Assembly (NCBI GenBank): GCA_029582265.1
Contig: CM055837.1
Coordinates: forward strand, 20,062,967-20,126,966
DNA length: 64,000 nucleotides
Direction of reading: 5' to 3'
Source: Zoroaster sp. YZ-2022
Lineage: Eukaryota; Echinodermata; Asteroidea; Forcipulatida; Zoroasteridae
Both the position numbers and the translations under genes were made by a program. The notes under the pieces were generated by a model. The model was not told where the DNA came from. It was given only the letters and a program-made list of their open reading frames with translations, and searched no databases. Positions 53,801 through 56,800 of this stretch are shown one piece after another (the first letter of the stretch is position 1; each line of letters starts with the position of its first letter).

Positions 53801-56800
53801 CAGGAACCTTTTGAACTGGGGGAAAAGGAGAGCAGAATTATTTTTACGGATTTTACCAAACGAGCCTGAATGTATTTTGTTTTCTTATTATTAAAAGACA
53901 AGTTGAAGAAAAAGTAATGATGCCATGATATCGTTGTGTGCCCGGAAGAAGGTCGTAAGGCTCTATGACCTTTTTCCGGGCACACAAAGTACAACTTTTT
54001 GTCCCAGCAGGTCATAAGCAATAAAATGGCTCCTTTGAAAAAAGTAGGGCATAACTGTTATAAATTTGTTGCTAGAATTACTCCCAAGACATGAATTTAA
54101 CTTTCCTACAATGACTTATAAATGTCACAAAACCGACCAAACTTTCACACTCAGTTTTCTTGAAACACAATTTTGCACATTAATTGCTTACGACCTTTTG
54201 CCGGTCACACTTTCGTTACGTCCTTCTTCCGGGCACACAATGATATCATGTGTCAACATGCACAAGTCTTTTTTCTCATACTGATATGAACAACAGAATG
54301 TGACTAGGTTGTAACTTTAATTTCAAAAGTAAATGTTTTTTGTTTTGCTCTAACTTACATCTAGTTCCCTGCATTCAGATGGATCTTCTTTATGGATCGT
54401 GGTTTGGTACTTGGCAAAGATTATATGGGATTCCTTGAAAGTTTCCTGAAATTCCCTGCTCTCCAGATGAGATCGAACCAGCTTAAACTGTTCTTGTTTG
54501 TTTGTGTGAATGACAGATGCCAGGTGGGGTGAACATTGACGGGCATAAACATACATGGGTGGTCAAGTAGTGACACAGATACGGTGATACATACACAGAC
54601 AGGGTGGTCAAATAGTGACACAGACACAGAGACAGATACAGTGATACAGACACAGACAGGTGACACAGTGGCACATACACATAGACAGACAGACATACAC
54701 GTTTAAAATGACCACAGGCAAACAAGACAAGGTAACAAAAAGGGTGAGAAAATATGGGAGAAAAAACAAAAGCAAAGGTCATTTTATTCTCAAAGGTGAA
54801 AATTCTTATTATTATATCAGTTTATGAAGCCAGATTTTCTTTAATACTGTTTATTTTTATGCAATCCAGAAAAGCATTATAATGTGTAGGGTGGTTGAAC
54901 ATAAGACTATTCCTTTTTTGGTAAATTAAAAGAAAATAAATAAATAAAAATTGAAAGCTTACTGCAGTCATCAAGTACTTAGATAAGGATTATAACAAAT
55001 CTTATGGAATTGTCTCTTTGACCTTTGACCTTTGACCTTTGCCCATTGTTTTTACTCCCTTGAGCCAGCTCCATGCTTCAAGCGAATGCAAATGTGAAAT
55101 GCGAACATTGACATCATCAATTTGCAGCGTATGATTCAGGCAAGTTGAAATGTGTAAAATTCCCGCAAATCAATCTCACGATTTGATGTCACAATTCAAA
55201 CATCGCATTCGTGTTTGAAAAGTATGAACCGACCTTAAAGGGACAGTATCGTCACGATCAGAGCAGACTTTCAACAGGGCATGGAATCGGTGTCCTCGTT
55301 TAAGATGAACACAGTGACTGAAAATTACTGTCTTATTTATGCAGCAACGGTAAGATGACCTTATTATGTGGAGTTTTTCAATCACTGAGTTAATCTAAAA
55401 CTAGTACTCCGATTCCATGCCCTGTTGGTCGTGACGATATTACCCCTTTAAGACATGATAGCGAGGGAACAGGGATTTTACAATCAACAAAAAACCTGTA
55501 TGTCCAACCACCCTATGTTACATTATAATACCTGTTTCTCCGATGGCTTGCTGGGTGGGTCCTTGTGTATAGTTATTTGGTATTTGCGATAGATACTGTA
55601 GCTCTCTTTAAAGGTATTCTCAAACTTGCGGTTCATGGGGCTGGACCGCACATATCTGATCTATATGTTTAAAACAAATCAATTACATTTATTTATCTGA
55701 TATTACAACAACAATTAAAGGGGCAGTATCATCACGATCAAAGCAGACTTTCAACCGGGCATGGAATCGGTGTCCTAGTTTAAGATAAACACAGTAACTG
55801 AAAATTACTGGCTCATTTATGCAGCAGCAACAATAATATGACCTTATCATGCGGGGCATTACGACAGTCACTCAGTTAATCCAAAAATAGCACTCCGATT
55901 CCATGCCCTGTTGATTGTGATGATACTGCCCCTTTAATGCATCATGAGTTTTTGGCTAGCACCCCCAAATAAATTGTACATTCAAAATAACTTTTGATTT
56001 TCTACTATTTTACATTTTAACATAATTGTTGGTTGGTTTTAAGACTTTGCCCTTTTTTATTTTTTAGTATGAATGCCTTAACAGGTTTTTGGTTTAGTAA
56101 TTTTAAAAGCTCTTGAACTTTTGAGCCCCCTGTAAAAAGTACTTTATAAATGTGTTATTATTTTACTAAGAGTAAGTCTGTGATTTTATGAATAACCAGT
56201 GGTGTGAGAATTCACTGGTTTTTCTCAGAACTGTTACAACTCATTAGAGTATTTTTCTGAGAAAAACCGGAAGTTTGTCAACCCTCCCAGTTCTTCTCAG
56301 AACCACAAACTTTTGCAACTCTTTAGTGAGTTTTTCTGAAAAGAACCGGAGGTTTGTCAAACCACCTGGTCTTCTCAGAAACACAAACTTTTACAACTTC
56401 CTCTTCCTCCATGCAAAGCTTCAAATCCTACTAATTATTACTCCCCTCACCCCTCTTATTTGAATTTTATCTTCCCTCCGGCAAACAGTGAGACTAGACT
56501 TCTATAAATGACTGTACCTCTAATTTATGTTTTTGGCCCTGCGATGCTCTTTCAGCCTCTTGAATCAATTCTTCTAGTGATTTTGGCTCGTCAGGTTTCT
56601 TAATGTCAACAGATGCTGCATCAACACCAGACTGAGACAGTCGATCTAGTCTTCGCTGACGTCGGAGTTCCTTGGCCTTCTTGCATTGGGGTTTCGTTGG
56701 GTCGGCACCAACGCCTGTGAAGAGGGAACATTGAGATCAGGGGTGTGATTTGACAAAAGTAAAAAATCCTGAAAAATGGGTAGCAGGCCTGGGTCTCCCT

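Follow-up and report, generated by a model that had tools for sequence, protein, structure and literature searches.

The alternative exon of the mouse ATE1 gene is 129 bp long. Exons 7a and 7b of vertebrate ATE1 are already in print. The product, ATE1, attaches arginine to proteins, and differences between its isoforms are disputed in mammals: the mouse isoforms have been described as differing in their target sites, and that source refers as well to a second group, in whose hands they were similar (PMC6212499). In human ATE1, competing RNA structures, R1–R5, have been reported (Kalinina 2021, as given in PMC8052449, PMC10790352 and PMC11802352); according to the last of these, a review, exclusion comes about through competition of R1 with R4 for R3. 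Tandem segments also occur in ATE1 of molluscs and arthropods, and a published account treats this class as convergent. Among the open-licence papers matched for ATE1 exon duplication and mutually exclusive exons, titles and opening lines of abstracts make no mention of ATE1 pairs from echinoderms, hemichordates or molluscs.

Here, a pair of ATE1 exons is described from the starfish Zoroaster sp. YZ-2022. The two exons, 6a and 6b, are quite likely the counterpart of vertebrate 7a/7b, that is, the outcome of a tandem duplication that had occurred by the deuterostome ancestor, with one copy normally used per mRNA.

The ATE1 gene and its duplicated exon

The window is the whole stretch of DNA that was analysed, 64,000 nucleotides of contig CM055837.1 (positions 20,062,967 to 20,126,966; assembly GCA_029582265.1). 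It holds a complete ATE1 gene on the minus strand (61706-50929), with ten coding exons per isoform, all of which were located (Table 1). Either isoform, with 6a or with 6b, is a single reading frame of 525 amino acids. The two isoforms matched Pfam ATE_N at 91.2 and 91.3 bits (cut-off 27) and ATE_C at 142.5 and 137.4 bits (cut-off 25). The cysteine cluster of ATE1 is present in the protein as CGYC and CC, and the same columns are invariant in 38 aligned sequences. Among the best 120 of 3222 matches, the nearest ATE1 proteins are those of sea stars, namely Asterias amurensis (70% identity), Patiria (66%) and Acanthaster (64%).

Exons 6a and 6b are consecutive, and each is open in frame 0 with phase 0 at both ends. 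Both have AG/GT flanks, atag and gtatta for 6a and acag and gtaagt for 6b. In register, 21 of 43 amino acids and 64 of 129 nucleotides are identical; BLASTP returned 21/40 identities with an E value of 3e-14, and among 200,000 shuffles of 6b the highest number of identities with 6a was 12, compared with the 21 observed. The original prediction of a duplicated 129-nt exon pair in ATE1, equal in length and phase and with 21/43 identities, was thus borne out in each of these points, and the span predicted for it, 54359..55660, runs exactly from the end of 6b to the start of 6a. The 6b protein matched two places only in the 1.0-Gb assembly (1,001,958,528 bases), which were 6b and 6a. The 6b region, used by itself as a query, gave one candidate and zero accepted matches.

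Two other open frames were observed on the plus strand of the window. That at 16535-17113 encodes a Runt domain (PF00853, 165.3 bits) and is an exon of a RUNX-type gene. The other, at 41129-42064, has 312 codons and zero Pfam matches at E 0.01.

Table 1. Positions in the window of the ATE1 exons and of features in the introns around exons 6a and 6b
Feature	Position	Strand	Basis or remark
ATE1 exon 1, from ATG	61619..61706	-	gene model
ATE1 exon 2	60944..61007	-	gene model
ATE1 exon 3, carries CC of the Cys cluster	59025..59150	-	gene model
ATE1 exon 4, variable linker	57136..57503	-	gene model
ATE1 exon 5, ending ...HKLE in phase 0	56518..56714	-	gene model
Palindromic interspersed element, second copy, intron 5-6a	55715..55938	.	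brackets 6a together with the first copy
ATE1 exon 6a, 129 nt, phase 0, a-type segment (K38, Y24)	55532..55660	-	splice sites, frame; a side in trees
Candidate RNA arm 1: 5' splice site of 6a with ~30 nt from the start of intron 6a-6b	55499..55532	-	minimum-energy fold
Palindromic interspersed element, MITE-like, first copy, intron 6a-6b	55235..55451	.	abundant in the genome
Candidate RNA arm 2, intron 6a-6b	54873..54903	-	pairs with arm 1
ATE1 exon 6b, 129 nt, phase 0, b-type segment (E38-C39, F24)	54359..54487	-	splice sites, frame, trees
Another interspersed element, ~35-nt inverted ends, intron 6b-7	53924..54250	.	abundant in the genome
ATE1 exon 7, common to both isoforms	53601..53815	-	gene model; match to ATE1-2 chain 8tzv
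ATE1 exon 8	53094..53193	-	gene model
ATE1 exon 9	52619..52736	-	gene model
ATE1 exon 10, TGA stop at end	50929..51101	-	gene model

Tandem segments in the ATE1 proteins of other animals

Relatives were gathered as 205 different proteins from two full-length searches, each of which contributed its best 120 matches (out of 3222 and 3154, respectively). One segment is present in 112 of these and two in tandem in 93. The start-to-start distance in the two-segment proteins is 43 amino acids in 71 and 54 in 17; distances of 65, 61, 52, 49 and 38 amino acids occur in one protein each. Judged by names, the 43-aa class consists of vertebrates and one hemichordate, and the 54-aa class of molluscs and arthropods. 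The 65- and 61-aa distances belong to two vertebrate models, and the 52- and 49-aa distances to Lycorma and Frankliniella, which have shorter b segments. The 38-aa case, from Lottia, looks like a faulty gene model. The hemichordate Glandiceps and all 11 vertebrates that were picked for pairing have the 43-aa period, and its presence in 71 of the 93 agrees with the earlier statement that vertebrate ATE1 has the same arrangement.

The 7a/7b-type layout is present in the starfish, where two tandem 43-aa segments in phase 0 lie between ...HKLE and FxRFL. The starfish exons probably correspond to 7a and 7b because they share with them the place in the protein, the 43-residue unit, the order (a before b) and a signature of K38 versus E/D38-C39. 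However, vertebrate b segments have an RLVPVSFEDP-like start, which starfish 6b does not. The tandem a-b pairs of molluscs and arthropods go beyond what had originally been claimed for this exon. These pairs resemble that of the starfish in place, a-before-b order and signature, but their unit is 54 rather than 43 amino acids since it takes in FxRFLxxSPL. This motif lies outside the unit of this starfish, Glandiceps and vertebrates, and in this starfish it sits in the common next exon, exon 7. No cnidarian or sponge sequence was present among the matches listed (best 120 of 3222 and best 120 of 3154), and the duplications are therefore unrooted. Yeast ATE1 aligns only to the latter half of the segment.

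The segment of 6a has K38-P39 and that of 6b has E38-C39. K/R38 in the first segment and E/D38 in the second were found in 91 of the 93 two-segment proteins, and the two exceptions are both from Monodelphis. In the Monodelphis proteins P0164 and P0204, V replaces E/D at position 38 of the b segment. Position 38 of the 112 single-segment proteins is K/R in 79, E/D in 32 and neither in one (S, in Octopus). Among the rows chosen for trees, K/R38 and Tyr24 were present in 37/37 a rows, E/D38 and Cys39 each in 42/43 b rows and Phe24 in 27/43 b rows; these counts include 6 a rows and 12 b rows that are single segments labelled from their letters, leave out seven unlabelled rows, and are not probabilities, as related species are not independent. 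In sea urchins, position 38 is K in Diadema and Strongylocentrotus and E in Lytechinus. The Lytechinus protein, P0005, has a b-like PPDEC end, yet it groups with a-type rows of sea urchins on a long branch; it may be a divergent b copy.

Origin of the pair

The full set of 87 tree rows was made up of the two window segments and 85 segments, hand-chosen, from 55 of the 205 proteins: 18 of the 20 protostome and 12 of the 73 deuterostome two-segment proteins, and 25 single-segment proteins. A 76-row set was obtained by dropping 11 rows, namely the a and b rows of Ixodes, Lycorma, Frankliniella, Trichonephila and Strigamia, and Lytechinus. Whether a single-segment row counted as a or b was decided by its letters (7 rows stayed unlabelled), and trees containing such rows are for this reason partly circular at columns 38-39. 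The order-labelled trees of pairs are free of that circularity.

In the deuterostome tree (38 rows), the 17 b rows formed one clade (88/88); the four starfish b rows (window, Asterias, Acanthaster and Patiria) were together (99/96), with window 6b beside Asterias (99/97). Clades uniting a with b were not rejected in this tree for starfish (AU p 0.095), echinoderms (0.19) or ambulacrarians (0.11). The a/b split was not clean in the 87-row tree: many b rows of protostomes were placed among a rows, and starfish b was adjacent to three b rows from arthropods (85/49). In the 76-row tree, 38 b rows were separated from the 38 other rows (97/75) and starfish b adjoined protostome b (64/79). Here an echinoderm a+b clade was rejected at AU p 0.027, with no correction for the four tests, and the AU p values of such clades were 0.158 for protostomes, 0.264 for crustaceans and 0.064 for molluscs plus the annelid. 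The order-labelled pairs-only tree parted 31 first copies from 31 second copies (28/79). When five long arthropods were left out, the split was 26 versus 26 (66/68) and window 6b was placed with Glandiceps and vertebrate b (78/77). A protostome a+b clade was not rejected in the order-labelled pair trees (AU p 0.191).

Removal of columns 38-39 weakened several of these groupings. The echinoderm a+b clade then escaped rejection (p 0.47). In the 52-row tree without these columns, Glandiceps b joined vertebrate b (74/79) and window 6b joined both at 34/15 only; protostome b rows, Elysia excepted, formed a group of their own, and holding all b rows together was not rejected (p 0.187). With 76 rows and the same columns removed, the tree with b rows held together outscored the free tree by 1.46 log units.

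A four-point distance test with column bootstrap was also used, in which the value is the preference for one shared duplication. This value was 0.974 for protostomes versus deuterostomes, 0.934 for molluscs versus deuterostomes, 0.985 for arthropods versus deuterostomes and 1.0 for molluscs versus arthropods. For the window it was 0.749 against protostomes and 0.617, near even, against vertebrates; against Glandiceps, shared duplication scored 0.472 and independent duplication 0.527. Without columns 38-39, the value fell from 0.79 to 0.47 for ambulacrarians versus vertebrates and from 0.68 to 0.30 for echinoderms versus vertebrates (independent 0.70). For protostomes versus deuterostomes it was 0.85 without these columns and 0.75 when column 24 was removed as well.

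The short length of the sequences, the starfish and echinoderm a+b clades that were not rejected in the deuterostome tree, and the lean of the distances toward independence without columns 38-39 would all suit a duplication inside echinoderms, with the likeness to 7a/7b due to convergence. Such an origin is improbable. None of the trees whose layouts were inspected unites window 6a with 6b, and a grouping of 6a with 6b away from the vertebrate pair, named in the original prediction as the sign of independent duplication, is likewise absent from all of them. Also, Glandiceps and vertebrates share the unit and the order, and the position-38 E of Lytechinus is not shared by the other two sea urchins. 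Common descent of the starfish pair with vertebrate 7a/7b thus appears to be the better-supported reading, resting largely on columns 38-39; for this reason, independent duplication is not rejected without them. The impression that the duplication is ancient holds to the extent that the trees favour an origin shared with vertebrates, with the qualification that much of the signal is confined to these two columns. A pair shared by deuterostomes is rated as likely, and one shared by all bilaterians as having somewhat better than an even chance.

At the deeper level, either one bilaterian pair has changed its borders or two duplications have converged on one charge switch. The protostome 54-aa pairs and the deuterostome 43-aa pairs, including that of the starfish, could be products of separate duplications that converged on the K-to-E/D and Cys switch and on the same order. 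This is a serious possibility that nevertheless falls short of even chances. It is favoured by the difference in unit (54 aa in 17 of 93, and 52, 49 and 38 aa in three further protostomes, versus 43 aa in 71), by the protostome a+b clade, which neither AU test rejected, and by the separation of most protostome b from deuterostome b in the 52-row tree without columns 38-39. It would, however, need the same two-residue change twice and in the same order; the distance test prefers one duplication, even with columns removed; the order-labelled trees part first from second copies, with weak support; and the 76-row tree with b rows together is slightly better than the free one. Were the duplications separate, the link between starfish and vertebrates would stay and only the deeper bilaterian origin would fall.

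It is a real possibility, though less likely than not, that one exon of ATE1 was duplicated at least twice, as a 54-residue unit (162 nt, as calculated from protein) in protostomes and as a 129-nt unit in deuterostomes. If so, the second copy would both times, and in the same order, have come to carry an acidic residue instead of the same lysine, with a cysteine after it, which would amount to a repeated and predictable arginylation switch. The alternative would be a single switch retained from the bilaterian ancestor onward although the exon borders moved. The contrast of 54- and 43-residue units makes ATE1 a sharp test case for inheritance versus re-invention of tandem exon switches.

Place in the protein and likely effect

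The segment encoded by 6a or 6b corresponds to residues 282-324, and Pfam ATE_C starts at residue 300-302. Its second half therefore lies within the catalytic domain, contrary to the proposal that the segment precedes the catalytic core. In an alignment to yeast ATE1, columns 24-32 correspond to yeast residues 170-178 and column 38 to residue 184. Residues 170-178 are among the tRNA contacts listed for the yeast enzyme (PMC10115844). By this alignment, the segment would comprise the end of helix alpha-h at which tRNA is contacted, together with the loop next to the substrate cleft.

A model of Asterias ATE1, which is b-type, has a mean pLDDT of 76.6, with values of 89-96 in 10-residue blocks over the segment. 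In this region of the model, residues 266-274 form a strand and 278-298 a helix, and a loop leads to a further helix (308-316); its best PDB match was human ATE1 (8tzv). A PDB search at E up to 0.001 gave six ATE1 sequences, of which the sole animal one is ATE1-2, a b-type chain, the others being from yeast by their titles. Among those PDB matches, the a-type form is thus without a solved structure.

Where the catalytic domain starts, exchange of one copy for the other would replace a strand, helix alpha-h and the alpha-h/alpha-i loop. The difference that persists would be a change of charge in the loop, from K/R38 in a to E/D38 followed by Cys in b; often, Tyr also gives way to Phe where the tRNA-contacting patch begins. 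The position-38 change is predicted to lie in the alpha-h/alpha-i loop and may alter the use of tRNA or of substrate, and the swap would likely tune the handling of Arg-tRNA and of acidic substrates. Since the segment, by the yeast alignment, covers the tRNA-contacting helix end and the loop, an effect on tRNA use would be no less likely than the effect on substrate preference that the original prediction put forward. The signature is common to starfish, acorn worm, vertebrates, molluscs and arthropods, and it points to positions 38-39 and Tyr/Phe24 as the residues to probe.

Splicing of the pair

The introns around the pair are 857 nt (5-6a), 1044 nt (6a-6b) and 543 nt (6b-7) in length. The donors of 6a and 6b match the consensus at 6/9 and 7/9 positions. 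The pyrimidine tract of 6b is the poorest of the ten acceptors (0.24, versus 0.53-0.94 for the other nine).

The two exons are presumably used in a mutually exclusive manner in the starfish. Nine proteins with 'lgn' as their only source are 464-525 amino acids long and come from contigs of 1.5-2.6 kb; by these sizes, and with 'lgn' taken as a code for such a source, they are probably assembled transcripts. All nine hold one segment, although clustering of proteins at 90% identity could hide other forms. With both segments present in 93 of the 205 proteins, either exclusion is not absolute or the two-segment models are wrong; the count is due in part to the profile of the second full-length search (best 120 of 3154 matches), which contained both segments and so favoured double models. 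These 93 proteins, the weak tract of 6b, the equal and in-frame length of the exons and an intron of 1044 nt, long enough to splice, would fit the usual inclusion of both exons together, or one exon being a rarely used relic. Either of these is very unlikely, given the single segment in 9/9 'lgn' proteins, the bias of the search profile and the retention of conserved residues in both starfish exons.

Several possible causes of exclusion were considered. The reading frame is kept with both exons or with neither, which rules out frame-based exclusion by decay. Incompatible classes of splice sites were not found, as a U12-type start was present in 0/10 donors and the exact branch motif was absent from the introns from 5-6a to 6b-7. 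Steric exclusion is unlikely with a 6a-6b intron of this length.

RNA structure and mobile elements in the introns

The donor of 6a can pair with a site further downstream in the same intron (arms 1 and 2 in Table 1). The duplex reached -49.5 kcal/mol for the surrounding 66-nt pieces, and both regions, 55452-55545 and 54850-54960, were unique in a genome search. The pairing had the strongest z of 15 pairs of intron pieces (z -4.3; 0/40 single-base shuffles), and only the 6a donor, among the ten ATE1 donors, pairs so strongly. Equally strong pairing occurred at 23 of 1500 random window positions, and the pairing probability of the 6a donor was 0.04 in a partition-function fold of 1.46 kb. The pairing, seen in one genome, is a weak candidate for a splicing regulator. 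Its likeness to human R1–R5 consists in the ability of the starfish 6a donor to pair with a downstream intronic site, and it would be an analogue, with no homology of the elements claimed.

Two copies of a palindromic element bracket exon 6a. Mobile elements were rejected as a cause of exclusion: pairing across 6a gave -194.5 kcal/mol compared with -102.0 and -98.2 (together -200.2) for the two self-folds, and the minimum-energy fold keeps the copies apart. In the genome, first-look candidates numbered 7003 for the palindromic element and 1770 for the element of intron 6b-7, with 40 scored for each. Both families being very abundant, the intronic elements are treated as incidental. The palindromic element is about 220 bp long with inverted ends, and three copies lie in ATE1 introns, including one at 60622-60850 of the window.
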